Under the pieces are notes generated by a model. The model saw nothing but the letters and a program-made list of their open reading frames with translations. It did not search any database and was not told the DNA's origin. Positions 5,076 through 12,221 of a stretch of 40,354 nucleotides of DNA are shown in pieces (position 1 is the stretch's first letter; each line of letters begins with the position of its first letter). The DNA is from Microcoleus sp. GA_180221_E-2-1-MAG-45_12 (lineage in GTDB: Bacteria; Cyanobacteriota; Cyanobacteriia; Cyanobacteriales; JAAUUE01), in NCBI GenBank assembly GCA_020692245.1, contig JAIMKT010000034.1:1-40354 (forward strand), read 5' to 3'. A program made the translations under genes and the position numbers.

Positions 5076-5672
5076 CTAGCTCTGGCAAATTGAGGGAGCT
5101 TCGGCTAGGGTTTTAGCAATTTCTTGCATCAAAATAATTTCATCCTTTGTCCAGAAATGGGTCGATCGACAGTGATGAGCCACTAACAATCCCCACAATC
5201 CTTTGTTTGTTAATACCGGAACAACTAAATTAGCTTTGACTTGCATTCCTCGCAGAAATTCCTGATGGCAGGGATGAAGGGGTTCTACTTCAATATTTGC
5301 CATAGCCCTCACCCGTCCGGCAAGATAAAGCTCTGCATACTCTGCATTGAAGCAATCATCCGCCCCAGTGGATCCCAGAATAGAAAATTCTTCTGTTGAT
5401 AAAGATTCTAGGGTGACTTGCCCCCGCCATTGACTGTAGAAATAGTAAAGAACTACTCGATCGACCTGAAGATAGTTGCGAAGTCTGGTGATGGATTGAG
5501 CTACAAGGGTATCTCTTTCAATAATTTTGGCGAGGCGATCGGCTATTCGCTTGACGCTGTGGTGGTAATCTTGATGATTGATTTGAGAATTAGCTTGAGG
5601 ATTGATTTGAGGATTGGCTCGATCGTCAGGAGGTTTGGGGGTATTTTGATGAAAATCCATAAACTTCAGCAT
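5076..5672 (-). CDS. Stand-alone GAF protein with DXCF-type cyanobacteriochrome motifs
   Basis: The 198-residue protein has a disordered Asn/Gln-rich N-terminus (residues 8-36, low complexity PQINPQANSQ), a helix, and one GAF domain from about residue 55 to 190. The GAF domain carries both signature cysteines of a DXCF cyanobacteriochrome: D105-D106-C107-F108, and the canonical bilin-binding C135-H136 in PCHQEFL. The family signatures VKANLVVPVL and LWGLLVAHHC follow. In that family both cysteines can bond a phycocyanobilin or phycoviolobilin, giving violet/blue-to-green/teal photoswitching. No kinase, GGDEF or methyl-accepting output domain is present, so it would have to act through a partner protein. 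It is the last gene of the minus-strand run that includes the STAND protein. The family call comes from motifs; chromophore binding is inferred. Confidence 0.75.
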   Translation of the reverse strand: MLKFMDFHQNTPKPPDDRANPQINPQANSQINHQDYHHSVKRIADRLAKIIERDTLVAQSITRLRNYLQVDRVVLYYFYSQWRGQVTLESLSTEEFSILGSTGADDCFNAEYAELYLAGRVRAMANIEVEPLHPCHQEFLRGMQVKANLVVPVLTNKGLWGLLVAHHCRSTHFWTKDEIILMQEIAKTLAEAPSICQS

Positions 5673-5919: not shown

Positions 5920-8900
5920 TCAGTGGTTGTAGTTAGTTGGGTTTGTCGAACCAAGTCGATCGCAGACCTCCGGCGACCCATTGGGATTGTGGTTTTTATA
6001 ATCTGCTAACCAAGTACAGCCTTGTCTAATTAAACTCTCTAAATTAAGATGCCACACAACTACCCGCCCACCTTGATCAGCCGATACTAGAAAGTTACCA
6101 TCTTGACTAAAACTCGCTTCAAAAATCGCTTCACTATGACTGGTACTCAGAGTAGTGATCAGATTTCCATCCAAGCGCCAAAACTTCAGGGTTTTATCCT
6201 CACTGACCGAGGCGATCGACCCGGCATCGGTTGCAAAGCCCACCCAGTTCACTGAGCCATTATGTCCCCGGAGGGTAGTGATCAAAGTTCCATCCATACT
6301 CCACAGGCGAATTGTCCCCTTATTCGTCGCCGCCGCTAGATATTTCCCATCGGCAGATATTGCCAAGTAGTTCACAGCCCCATTATTTTCTCGGAAAGTG
6401 CGGAGGAGTTGCCCATCCAAGCTCCAGATTTTTACTGTCTGGTCATCGCTGCCCGTTGCTACAAATTCTCCTCCGGGAGCAAAAGCCACTGTGTTGACAT
6501 TATCTTCATGCCCCACCAACGTATGCAGAAGGTTTCCCGTTGTATTCCAAATTTTCGCAGTTTTATCCCTGCCAGCACTGGCGATGAGGCGATCGTCCGG
6601 GGAGAAAGCCAACCCATTTACCCCGCCCTCATGGGCAGTAATCGTTTGGATCAAATCTCCCTGATCTGTCCACAGGCGAAGCGTTTGGTCATCACTGCCA
6701 CTGGCTAAAAACTTGCCATTATGGGAAAAAACTACACTGTTGATCGAGTCTGTATGGGCAACTAATTCCTTCAGGAGAGTTCCCCGAATTGACCAGAGCC
6801 GGATCAGGTGATCTTGGCTCCCGGTGGCGATCGACTCTCCCCTAGAACTGACACTGACCGCATTTACTGCCTCTGACTGGACAATCTTCTGGGTAAACTC
6901 ATTCCGCCGCCAAAACTTCACCGTACTATCTCCACTGCCACTAGCTAAAATCTGCCCATCGGGACTGAAACCCACAGCCCGGACTAGATTCCCATGCCCC
7001 CGGAAAGTATCCACCAAATTCCCCGCCAAATCCCAGACCTGCACCGTATTATCCGCATTGCCCACCGCCAGCCCTCGACTATCAGGGCGAAAGGCGACAC
7101 TCAACACCCAATCTTGGCTCACTTGCCACTCCCGACTCGGAGCCTGACTCCACGGCTGTGTAATTCCATCTCGCTGCCAGAGAAATACCTTGCCATTCGT
7201 GCCTGTCACCGCCAAAGCCTGATTATTGGGGGCAAACTTCACGCTGGTAATCACTTTATTCATATTCTCTCCCGGAGCTTGCCAAGATTGCTGCCGTTGA
7301 AAATCCCCCTTCTCATCCTGCTGCCAAAAAATCACTAAGCCATCCGCCCCTACAGAAACTAAGGTCTTGCCATCCGGGGCAAAATCTACCCCCAACACTC
7401 GATTATCATGTCCTTGCAAGGTACTAACTAATTGCCCTTGGAGATTCCAAATTTTAATAGTTTTATCCCAACTACCACTGGCGATCAACTGCCCATCGGG
7501 ACTAAAAACCACAGAACTCACTATGTCTTCATGGGTGTAGCTGCCTGCTGGAGAAGTCTTGATCTCCTCACCTGTAGGGTAGTTCCAGACCTTTACCCGG
7601 TTCCCTGTTCCAGCAGCGATGAGTTGACTATCAGGAGAAAAGCTCACACCCTCTAGTTCATCTGTTGTTCCCGTTAATTCCCGGAGTAACTTCCCTTGAA
7701 GATTCCAGACTTTTAGGGTTTTATCTCTGCTAGCCGTAGCAAGGAGTTGACCATTGGGAGAGAAAGCTAGACCCATGACCCAATCGGTGTGTCCTTCGAG
7801 ACGGTTACTTTCCCGGATTTGGTCGATCGTCTGTTGCAGCGTTGTTAGTACCCGGATCTTTGCATCTACACTAGCACCCCATTTGTCACCCCATTTATCA
7901 CCCCAAAAGCCCTCTAGCACCCGCCCCGCCTTCAGGCTTTCTACCAGAGCATCAAACTTACGATTTGAGAGGATCAAACTTTCGGCAGAAGAGACGATCG
8001 CCCCAATTTGAGCATTGGTTTCCTTCAGGGATGCTTGGATGGCAAAAACTCCGGCTAACATAGCACTGGTTAAAAATCCTAAGCCCCAGAGCCTAGCTGC
8101 CGTTAATCTTTGTTGCAGGATTTGATTAAGTTTATTTTCACTATCTTGTTGTCCTAATTTCGCTACAGTTAATTCGGCAATTAGGGCTTTTTCTCGGAGG
8201 GCAAATTCTAGCCTTTCAATGGTTTCTTGGTTGGTAATTTGACGCTGTTTATAATCTTCGATCTGGAGCTTGGTATTAACTTCTTCTCGTTGCCGAATAA
8301 ATTCTACTAAATAGTCATGGACTAACTGATACCGGGGAAAGGGAATTTCTGGCAAGAGAAATACTAAACCAGACTTTTCAAGGATTTCTAAAATTAGGTC
8401 TAAGGTGGGATAAAAGGCTCCCTGATCTAATTCTAGATCGGCAATTAATTCGAGGCGAGTTTTGAGGGGACGAATATTATTTTCTGCGGTGAGGAAATAG
8501 AGAATCTGCCAAGCCATCGCCGCATTTTCAGCACCACAATCTTGGACTACTTGTTCTAAAAATCTTTCTGCCAGCCGTTGTTTTAATCCAGATTCATGAT
8601 ACTGCTCCAGGGTAGTAATATTTTCTGACTGGACTTGAGCGCCAACTAACTGGAGTTCGATGGGGCGAATTTCTTGATTTTTTCCGGCTAATTCAGCAAC
8701 TATTTCATTAATTAAATCTGGTTCAATTTCAAAATCAGCCCGATGGGTGAGGGTAGTGACGACCGATCGAGCATCGGTAATAGAGAAGTTGCCAAGGGAA
8801 TAGCGAATCCGGCGATCGAGGATATTATTATTAATAGGATCAAGTAGTACCTGTTCACTATTGAGGAGATAATGCAAGCCATCTTCCCGTAAAGATAAAA

Positions 8901-10911
8901 TTACTTTGACATAGGAAATATTGAGACAATCCCGTAAAAATTCAAAGAAACTAGTGCGTTGTTGATTGTTAGTATTATAAAAGAAAAATTCCTCAAATTG
9001 ATCAAAGATAATAACCGTCAGGGCGTGTTGTTTTTCCTGTTGCCGGAGATGTTCTAAGATATCTACAGCAATAGTTGAATCAGGTGAATTAATATCTAGG
9101 GAAAGGGCTTTTGCTAGTTCTTTTAGCCAGTTTGTATAAACTTGAATTGGGATGGTGATGGCAACTCGATCGCCCACCCCCTGTTCTTGGAGAGTAGGAA
9201 TTAAACCCGCATGAATTAAGGAACTTTTGCCCACACCAGATTCTCCGTGGAGAACAATCAAGCGATGATCAGCCCGATTCAGACGGCTCATGATATTTTG
9301 CAGGTCTTGATAGCGACTAGACACCCGGATTTCGGCAGCGACCGTAGTTTGCAGACCATTTAAGGTGGGAAAAGACTTCCCATAAACTGGTTGGGGTTGT
9401 AATCTTCTAGCGCCAATAAAAGCCCGAAAGCCATAGAGTTGTTCTACTGATAGTTGTTGCTGTTTGATATGAAAGGCTTCTAGATAGCAACCCTGATCAA
9501 AATATAAATTTCTCAGTTGTTTAAGAATATCTAAATAGTGTTGAGGATCAGCCCGATGATCGCTGAGTTTGAGGGCTATATCTAGTTGTTTTGTGGCAAT
9601 AGTTAAATTTTGTTGGGCTTGATTTGTATTACCTAAAGCGGTGTGGGCTTTGACAATAAATAATCGATAGAGTTGCCCCAACAATAATCCTTGGAGAATT
9701 AAAGGATGCTCGGTTAAATATTCGGTGACAGGAGGAAATTCTCTAACTAAATTTTCTAAGGCTTGACTGGCTAATTTGATACTATCTTGCCAACGATTTT
9801 GGGCGATCGCCACCATTGCCAAAAAACCATAATCTTGGGCCATTTCAATAGTTTTCCCGCAGTTTTCATGGATTAATCTCGCTCGTTCTGCCAAGTCCTT
9901 AAGCGGAGTCCATGCTTGTAAATATTGGAGAATTTCACCCTGCTGACTAAGAATTTGAGATACTAATTCGGGACAATTTACTTGACTTAAATAGTTAACT
10001 GCCTGTTCCATGGCGAGCCAAGCAGATTGCCAGTGTAATTGTTTTTGAGCCTGTTGTCTTTCTGCCAAGCGACAATAGCAAAGGGCAATATTAGCTAATA
10101 CTAAACCTTGAGCTTGTTGATCATTATTTGTCTGCCAAAATTCTAGAGATAATTGATAGTGGAGAAGAGCTTGTTCTAATTCCTGTTGGCTATAGGCATT
10201 TCTGCCCAACACAAACTCTAGCTTTGCGGATAGTTCTAGGGGTAATTGATATTTATAGTCTGCTAAATCTCTAAGAGCAAAATCTAGTTCTAAAGTTTCC
10301 TCACTCAAATCTTGGATAGTTAAATACTGCTGTAATTGTTGGGGAGAATTATAAATACTATTAACTTTGACTTCGAGGAGATTAACTAATTCCAAATAGT
10401 TTAACTGGAGACTAATAGGAGTCACTGCCCAGTTATTAAAGTCTGGGGCATAACGAATTAAGCTGGTGAGGATGCGATCGTTCACCACCAAAATAATGGG
10501 AAAAGGAAATTTATTGCGAAATTCATCCCTAATTTGATTAGCAGAGGTTAATAATCCAGTTAAATCAATGACATTTTCTAACCCCAAAATAATCAAAGCA
10601 TCTGGAGAAGATTGTCCTAAATTATTTCCCGTCTTATCTGCAATATTATCTACAACATTAATTGCAATACTATCTGCAATACTAGAATAAAGACTTGTAG
10701 TTTGTGGAGGAAGATCAATTTTTAGTAAATTGTGATCAGGAGGCAGATAAATTGATAATTCTTCTAGGTATTTGTCCCGGAGTTGCTGATAGTTGCAATG
10801 CATCAAAATCAAGGAAAATTCCCCAAGAGATAGGGTAATAGCCCGGACTAAACTATTGAGGGCTTGTTGATTTTTTGCTGCTATCTCATCTAGGGAATAT
10901 GGCTCGCCCAT
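5920..10911 (-). CDS. TPR/nSTAND-type NTPase with membrane segment and 14 WD40 repeats
   Basis: This 1663-residue multidomain protein reads in order: residues 1-200, an alpha/beta region resembling an inactive P-loop domain (FSLILMHCN, then PDALIILGLENV, then RYAPDFNNW); about 215-490, helical TPR-like repeats; about 505-860, a STAND NTPase with Walker A GESGVGKSS (556-564) and Walker B TVIIFDQFEEFF; a coiled coil; one hydrophobic segment (LWGLGFLTSAMLAGVFAIQ); and 14 WD40 repeats, enough for two seven-bladed propellers, each closing with motifs such as LKVWN or IKIWN. STAND proteins are ATP-dependent switches that oligomerise when the sensor region binds a ligand. Its start overlaps the ATPase gene by 22 bp, so the two are co-translated. 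The signal and the output are unknown; defence, apoptosis-like or stress signalling are possible (inference). Confidence 0.85.
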   Translation of the reverse strand: MGEPYSLDEIAAKNQQALNSLVRAITLSLGEFSLILMHCNYQQLRDKYLEELSIYLPPDHNLLKIDLPPQTTSLYSSIADSIAINVVDNIADKTGNNLGQSSPDALIILGLENVIDLTGLLTSANQIRDEFRNKFPFPIILVVNDRILTSLIRYAPDFNNWAVTPISLQLNYLELVNLLEVKVNSIYNSPQQLQQYLTIQDLSEETLELDFALRDLADYKYQLPLELSAKLEFVLGRNAYSQQELEQALLHYQLSLEFWQTNNDQQAQGLVLANIALCYCRLAERQQAQKQLHWQSAWLAMEQAVNYLSQVNCPELVSQILSQQGEILQYLQAWTPLKDLAERARLIHENCGKTIEMAQDYGFLAMVAIAQNRWQDSIKLASQALENLVREFPPVTEYLTEHPLILQGLLLGQLYRLFIVKAHTALGNTNQAQQNLTIATKQLDIALKLSDHRADPQHYLDILKQLRNLYFDQGCYLEAFHIKQQQLSVEQLYGFRAFIGARRLQPQPVYGKSFPTLNGLQTTVAAEIRVSSRYQDLQNIMSRLNRADHRLIVLHGESGVGKSSLIHAGLIPTLQEQGVGDRVAITIPIQVYTNWLKELAKALSLDINSPDSTIAVDILEHLRQQEKQHALTVIIFDQFEEFFFYNTNNQQRTSFFEFLRDCLNISYVKVILSLREDGLHYLLNSEQVLLDPINNNILDRRIRYSLGNFSITDARSVVTTLTHRADFEIEPDLINEIVAELAGKNQEIRPIELQLVGAQVQSENITTLEQYHESGLKQRLAERFLEQVVQDCGAENAAMAWQILYFLTAENNIRPLKTRLELIADLELDQGAFYPTLDLILEILEKSGLVFLLPEIPFPRYQLVHDYLVEFIRQREEVNTKLQIEDYKQRQITNQETIERLEFALREKALIAELTVAKLGQQDSENKLNQILQQRLTAARLWGLGFLTSAMLAGVFAIQASLKETNAQIGAIVSSAESLILSNRKFDALVESLKAGRVLEGFWGDKWGDKWGASVDAKIRVLTTLQQTIDQIRESNRLEGHTDWVMGLAFSPNGQLLATASRDKTLKVWNLQGKLLRELTGTTDELEGVSFSPDSQLIAAGTGNRVKVWNYPTGEEIKTSPAGSYTHEDIVSSVVFSPDGQLIASGSWDKTIKIWNLQGQLVSTLQGHDNRVLGVDFAPDGKTLVSVGADGLVIFWQQDEKGDFQRQQSWQAPGENMNKVITSVKFAPNNQALAVTGTNGKVFLWQRDGITQPWSQAPSREWQVSQDWVLSVAFRPDSRGLAVGNADNTVQVWDLAGNLVDTFRGHGNLVRAVGFSPDGQILASGSGDSTVKFWRRNEFTQKIVQSEAVNAVSVSSRGESIATGSQDHLIRLWSIRGTLLKELVAHTDSINSVVFSHNGKFLASGSDDQTLRLWTDQGDLIQTITAHEGGVNGLAFSPDDRLIASAGRDKTAKIWNTTGNLLHTLVGHEDNVNTVAFAPGGEFVATGSDDQTVKIWSLDGQLLRTFRENNGAVNYLAISADGKYLAAATNKGTIRLWSMDGTLITTLRGHNGSVNWVGFATDAGSIASVSEDKTLKFWRLDGNLITTLSTSHSEAIFEASFSQDGNFLVSADQGGRVVVWHLNLESLIRQGCTWLADYKNHNPNGSPEVCDRLGSTNPTNYNH

Positions 10912-12221
10912 AACTGAAATTGTTTGGTTTCTTCCAAGGCAGGATTGAGACTATACCAACAACCTTGCTGGTCTCGGTACTCGAATACTAGCATACTCTT
11001 CAGGAGGGTTTGATATTCTTCATCGCCTTTGACTGTCTGTTCTTGGACTACTTGAAATAATAAATCCCACTCTTGATTATCGATGGGCGAAACGAGAAAA
11101 TCCCGGCGTTGTCTGATGGCAGTTTCTAGGCACTCCCTGGAGATGGGCGGATCTTCCTGCCGGAGACAGTCGTAGAGCAAGCCCAATAAATTCCGTAGAT
11201 GACCGCCGCTAATTTGGCAGAGGCGATCGAGGGTATCGAGACTATCAAATACCTCTGGGACTAAATTTAATCTTTCGGCAACGGTGGCATCGGGAAAAGC
11301 TCTGGAAAGCACTAGATGGCGGAGCAGATTCAATCCGGGTTGATAAAACTGTCCATTCCTCGATCGTACCTGTACCATGGGCAGCACTTGAGGAATTAGA
11401 CCACCCCCCAAACGATTTTTCAAGGTTTCGGCATCGTTACAAAAAGCCAAAGCGAGGGGAATGGTATAGACAATATGGCAGGCTAGTTGCCGGAGTTCAT
11501 CACCCCGATCAATAAATAAATATTCTGGTTGCGATCGTCCAGAGGGCAGGAGTCGATAGGTAATGCGATCGAGGTTATCTACAATTACCACCAAACCCGA
11601 TTTCCCTCGGCGTTTCAGTTCGGCTTGGACGGGTTTAATTAATTCTGTGTTAATGGCAGCCAGAATATTGCTAGTTCTGGGTTCGAGGTATTCCCTCAGG
11701 CGGCGGCGGACTTGGGGCGATTCCTTGGTACGGGCGTGAATCTTGGCAATGCCTAGGGATATTTCGGCTTCGGCATTGAGTTCTATGGGGGTTTGCAAAA
11801 ATTGCCCGATATCTTGAAATAGGCGGGTAAACAGTCCGGGTTGCAGCTTGATTTTAATCCCGGCTAGGGTTTCACTCACCTGCCAAGCGATCGCCAGCAA
11901 AATATCCGTAATATCTACGTCTGCCACATCAAGGTACTGGCTAGATTCAAAATAAACCACTACAAAGCCCTGCTGCTCTAGCTCTGCCTGCAATCGCAAT
12001 AGTTCTGTAGATTTCCCCGCCCCAATATGTCCGGTGAATAGCTGACAGGTGGGTTCATCGGGGGAGATTGTGGTAATTGTGCGCTTGAGGGCATCGATCA
12101 TCTTCCCGCCCCGGACTGTGGAGAGGTCTATATAATATTTCCGGTCTTCTTCAATACTGACAACGAGAGGTTTACTGGGATTGCAAGCCTTGTAGAATTT
12201 ATTTAGATCGATCGCTCCCAT
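10890..12221 (-). CDS. P-loop ATPase paired with the STAND-WD40 protein
   Basis: The 443-residue AAA/KAP-like ATPase has Walker A GHIGAGKST (64-72) and Walker B LVVIVDNLDRI (210-220). After these come a long helical region with SGGHLRNLLGLLYDCL (sensor-2-like, around residue 340) and a C-terminal domain that may be a winged helix. It lacks transmembrane segments. Its last 22 bp overlap the start of the STAND-WD40 gene (CCCTAGATG region), which implies a fixed stoichiometric partnership. Domain order resembles ATPases in bacterial signalling or antiviral NTPase pairs, but no nuclease, TIR, protease or other effector domain is visible here. The specific function is unknown. Its expression probably begins in the short AT-rich gap upstream (12222-12293). 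Confidence 0.8.
   Translation of the reverse strand: MGAIDLNKFYKACNPSKPLVVSIEEDRKYYIDLSTVRGGKMIDALKRTITTISPDEPTCQLFTGHIGAGKSTELLRLQAELEQQGFVVVYFESSQYLDVADVDITDILLAIAWQVSETLAGIKIKLQPGLFTRLFQDIGQFLQTPIELNAEAEISLGIAKIHARTKESPQVRRRLREYLEPRTSNILAAINTELIKPVQAELKRRGKSGLVVIVDNLDRITYRLLPSGRSQPEYLFIDRGDELRQLACHIVYTIPLALAFCNDAETLKNRLGGGLIPQVLPMVQVRSRNGQFYQPGLNLLRHLVLSRAFPDATVAERLNLVPEVFDSLDTLDRLCQISGGHLRNLLGLLYDCLRQEDPPISRECLETAIRQRRDFLVSPIDNQEWDLLFQVVQEQTVKGDEEYQTLLKSMLVFEYRDQQGCWYSLNPALEETKQFQLWASHIP

Follow-up and report, generated by a model that had tools for sequence, protein, structure and literature searches.

The window analysed here, a stretch of 40,354 nucleotides of Microcoleus DNA, encodes on its minus strand a 198-residue protein that belongs to a family of stand-alone dual-cysteine cyanobacteriochromes (CBCRs). 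The family members are single-domain open reading frames (ORFs), are present as single copies, and form one monophyletic group. Work on CBCRs has dealt almost wholly with modules that form part of kinases, cyclases or chemoreceptors, and a conserved single-copy clade whose proteins end after the GAF domain indicates that a bare photosensor can be a functional unit in nature. We consider it reasonably probable that the window protein is a soluble single-domain CBCR of the DXCF type with a blue-type photocycle, which most likely signals by light-dependent binding of a separate partner.

The ORF begins with ATG and is uninterrupted until its stop codon, and the plus strand across the same positions is interrupted by stops. 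The exact start of the protein is uncertain (M1 or M5), and similarity to the ortholog in a same-genus genome begins only at residue 40. The Pfam scan of the 198 residues returns the GAF domain alone and finds no PHY or any other domain, in agreement with the original prediction that an output domain is absent. The motifs quoted in that prediction, DDCF at residues 105-108, CH at residues 135-136, ANLVVPVL and LWGLLVAH, are all found in the minus-strand protein. Scans for promoters and terminators around the gene stayed at chance level. The features are collected in Table 1.

Table 1. Features of the stand-alone GAF gene, in window coordinates.
Feature	Position	Strand	Basis or remark
CDS, stand-alone DXCF cyanobacteriochrome GAF protein	5076..5672	-	198 aa, stop codon included; Pfam GAF E=5.9e-18
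GAF domain, residues 53-191	5100..5516	-	Pfam PF01590; AlphaFold2 core pLDDT; Foldseek CBCR GAF matches
DXCF motif D105-D106-C107-F108, second-cysteine site	5349..5360	-	Family conservation; alignment with TePixJ DPCF
C135-H136, canonical bilin-attachment Cys and next His	5265..5270	-	83/83 family members; alignment with TePixJ CH
YYFY signature Y76-Y79 (Y77 and Y79 family-specific)	5436..5447	-	Counts in family versus other CBCR GAFs
C-terminal 24 residues past invariant W174, a short helix before the chain ends	5079..5150	-	Length conservation
Residues 1-40, variable N-terminal extension	5553..5672	-	Non-conserved; low pLDDT in residues 1-30

The top sequence matches of the protein in the PDB are bilin-binding GAF domains, nearly all of them from CBCRs or phytochromes, and include 6oap, the miRFP670nano proteins, RcaE and TePixJ. 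The family profile matches the TePixJ GAF domain at 5e-34, and both cysteines, in the DXCF and CH motifs, align in register with the DPCF and CH of TePixJ. An AlphaFold2 model built on the family alignment has a mean pLDDT of 84, with most of the core at 90-98, the loop bearing the DXCF motif at 69-77, and residues 1-30 at 45-60. The model contains a long N-terminal helix comprising residues 33-68. Foldseek searches with this model retrieve CBCR GAF structures, including 4glq, the blue form of TePixJ (TMt 0.84, rmsd 2.3). The GAF fold and both cysteines of the window protein are shown by these computations, and the Pfam assignment, the PDB and Foldseek matches, the register with TePixJ and the conservation of the cysteines within the family uphold its identification as a stand-alone dual-cysteine DXCF CBCR.

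Among 60 relatives searched, orthologs with 46-88% identity, all of them short ORFs, stood apart from other CBCR GAF domains with ~44% identity or less, which lie within large ORFs. The family profile was then run over 386 genomes sampled across the cyanobacterial phylum. Matches at 231-294 bits were obtained in 57 of these genomes, the genome of the window counted, with one copy each; the nine best candidates per genome were scored, so that weak additional copies could escape. The open frames of all 57 matches are 165-213 aa long. The next match falls to 184 bits; its frame is 895 aa long, and those of the later matches listed are likewise larger than in the family. Named hosts are Nostoc, Anabaena, Calothrix, Rivularia, Mastigocoleus, Nodosilinea, Oscillatoriaceae, Xenococcaceae and Pseudanabaenaceae. 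A search for plasmid-borne family copies returned as its sole match one protein of the multidomain type at 36%. The stand-alone GAF domain, regarded at first as an oddity, is therefore a member of a widespread and always single-domain family. In the open literature, beyond which many CBCR papers lie, no dedicated account of stand-alone or GAF-only CBCRs as a distinct clade was found. The family is not wholly new, as single members such as the inferred ortholog alr3356 are already known. We also note multidomain CBCRs whose GAF domains carry DHCF/CH in the genome of the window (loci L004, L005 and L007), which thus possesses several dual-cysteine sensors.

The residues expected to hold the chromophore are strongly conserved among 83 distinct family members. 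C135, H136 and F108 are present in all 83, C107 in 82, and D105 in 71, varying in the other 12. Loss of either cysteine in close relatives had been named as evidence against the assignment; it was looked for and did not overturn the assignment, the single case being the absence of C107 from a protein of Dendronalium phyllosphericum CENA369 (L028, 6409-6948), which reads DNSF and retains C135. This protein represents a natural C107S variant, in which serine replaces the second cysteine. The dN/dS ratios of nine close family pairs range from 0.04 to 0.30, and the gene is under purifying selection. Two tyrosines distinguish the family from other CBCRs. Y77 is present in 58 of 59 members and in none of 52 other CBCR GAF domains, which carry Q, R or K, and Y79 in 58 of 59 members versus 3 of 52; in the wider family set each is found in 82/83. 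In the general scheme of phytochromes the neighbouring Y76 is the counterpart of Tyr176 of Cph1, which faces the chromophore, and Y77 and Y79 on the same strand should therefore point away from the bilin. This orientation makes a role of Y77 and Y79 as a protein interface plausible. The C-terminus is also fixed, with the chain ending exactly 24 residues after the invariant W174 in 48/59 members.

In a midpoint-rooted tree of 35 family members and 55 other CBCR GAF domains, one branch, with 100/100 support and a long stem (0.71), separates the family from all the others. The clade is placed beside the other GAF domains, most of them DXCF; under midpoint rooting no single sister lineage is resolved. 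The closest multidomain relatives are mostly of the DXCF/CH type, both cysteines being present in 49/57 non-family domains, and descent of the family from DXCF CBCRs is therefore likely.

The gene neighbourhood offers little that is common to the family. Upstream in the window and on the same strand lie a TPR/nSTAND1/WD40 gene that ends 247 bp before the GAF gene, and a P-loop NTPase gene. The P-loop NTPase gene overlaps the TPR/nSTAND1/WD40 gene (1663 aa) within positions 5920-12221, and paralogs of the P-loop protein are encoded at G000:C59 and G000:C100; the two genes may act together, apart from the GAF gene, as a STAND-type pair in signalling or defence. This pair was absent beside the family gene at all 59 other flanked loci. 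In G001, the genome from the same genus, the P-loop/STAND pair is located on contig C27, its P-loop gene being 96% identical, and the CBCR gene on contig C255. On the GAF side, homology of G001 to the window extends no further than residue 40 of the GAF gene, and on the other side it breaks off close to the STAND gene's end, a comparison limited by contig ends and by the low coverage of C255. On C255 (L009/L174, 1-1068) the family gene is preceded by sequence unrelated to the window, and the first 40 codons of the gene are unrelated as well; the region may have been rearranged, or this low-coverage contig may be chimeric. The adjacency to the STAND-WD40 gene remarked on in the original prediction did not recur at other family loci. 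We reject the idea that the GAF gene works as a unit with the STAND-WD40 gene or the P-loop gene, as the adjacency is not conserved and the genes occupy different contigs in G001; the STAND-WD40 neighbour is incidental.

Across 60 flanked family loci no general conserved neighbour or operon partner was found, only synteny at the level of lineages. In Nostocales this involves ndhH, a SAM methyltransferase and a dehydrogenase, and elsewhere purS-purQ, chlI, or an AcrB-type pump. ndhH is located upstream on the same strand in 18/60 loci, at a distance of 261-501 bp in eight of them. In two related genomes (L079 and L080) a multidomain CBCR gene (~1330-1350 aa) immediately precedes the stand-alone gene in the same orientation.

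The ndhH synteny connects the family with Anabaena PCC 7120, in which ndhH is alr3355 (PMC8147232; PMC12923008). The gene numbered right after it, alr3356, is annotated as a CBCR GAF protein, and its product is reported to be a CBCR whose GAF domain binds a chromophore (PMC4788461). Because of this gene order alr3356 is likely the family ortholog, as judged by synteny and annotation; the window genome, unlike that of alr3356, has no ndhH neighbour. alr3356 is reported to be a direct target of FurA, being 3.94-fold up on furA turn-off and positive in EMSA, and pcyA and nblA also rise in the same experiment (PMC4788461). Seven blue-absorbing GAF domains in Anabaena PCC 7120 are attributed to Ma et al. 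2012, as that work is cited in PMC4788461.

Typical DXCF GAF domains bind phycocyanobilin (PCB), often isomerise it to phycoviolobilin (PVB), and cycle between a blue dark state, in which the second cysteine is attached to C10, and a green photoproduct (PMC11284453). The motifs and their conservation strongly suggest that the window protein likewise binds a bilin and undergoes a blue-type photocycle. A supply of bilin is to be expected, since the genome of the window encodes a heme oxygenase and a bilin reductase of the PcyA type. C135 would hold PCB, possibly isomerised to PVB, and C107 would add to C10 of the bilin in the dark state to give blue absorption. Photoisomerisation between 15Z and 15E would then detach C107 and produce a green- to orange-absorbing state. 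The light state would in turn control binding to a separately encoded partner, as the one-domain PixD acts on PixE. Since the protein has neither an output domain nor a linked partner, the simplest model is that it binds a separate protein in a light-dependent manner, and the analogy with PixD suggests that the protein acts in trans.

Two other roles for a photoactive protein were weighed. It could serve as a light-regulated adaptor that joins multidomain CBCR or phytochrome kinases, forming a hetero-dimer through GAF helices and tuning the other sensor in place of a dedicated partner. The predicted N-terminal helix is of the kind that forms GAF dimers, several multidomain CBCRs are encoded in the genome of the window, and at L079 and L080 a multidomain CBCR gene lies just ahead of the stand-alone one; that arrangement, however, occurs at two related loci only, and a general linkage was not found, so we regard this role as unlikely. 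More doubtful still is a bilin-binding role without signalling, in which a photoactive DXCF CBCR would act as carrier, buffer or light-screen for PCB and photoconversion would be incidental. A single domain and the lack of a conserved neighbour are consistent with such a role, as are the FurA control of the inferred ortholog and the concurrent rise of pcyA and nblA (PMC4788461). A simple carrier would nevertheless need less than a conserved second cysteine and an entire conserved DXCF/CH pocket, and the Y77/Y79 signature, like the C-terminus of fixed length, points to a specific interface with another protein. That the gene is a decaying remnant, a functionless GAF domain severed from a larger sensor, is very improbable: the output domain is absent and the 5' end differs between two same-genus genomes, but the family is one ancient clade that is always single-domain, and the low dN/dS ratios and invariant pocket residues lead us to reject a remnant or pseudogene.

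Light-dependent binding of a separate partner can be extended to the family as a whole, and here our proposal is more tentative. The clade might comprise dedicated, trans-only bilin photoreceptors that engage a conserved partner through the Y77/Y79 surface, a counterpart of PixD and short-LOV proteins with a possible link to iron through FurA. The family poses a defined orphan-receptor question, that of the binding partner, which the inferred ortholog makes testable in the genetically tractable Anabaena PCC 7120. It also provides a naturally small (~18-22 kDa) dual-cysteine photoswitch for tools.

The GAF domain of TePixJ, a DXCF blue/green CBCR (PDB 3vv4, 4glq and 2m7u), shares with the window protein the GAF fold and the DXCF and CH cysteines. 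In TePixJ, however, this GAF is one domain in a methyl-accepting chemotaxis-type protein, whereas the window protein is single-domain; TePixJ moreover does not carry the YYFY signature of the family and falls outside its clade. The multidomain DXCF CBCRs of the same genomes likewise share a GAF domain with DXCF and CH, at up to ~44% identity, but are always parts of larger proteins and score at most 184 bits against the family profile, compared with at least 231 for the stand-alone family. PixD (Slr1694) resembles the window protein in being a single-domain soluble photoreceptor without an output domain, and signals by light-dependent partner binding (PMC5812497): this one-domain BLUF protein, a working precedent among cyanobacteria, keeps PixE bound in darkness and lets it go under blue light (PMC5812497; PMC9090330). 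Unlike the window protein, PixD binds flavin and has an unrelated fold, and is a functional analogue only.
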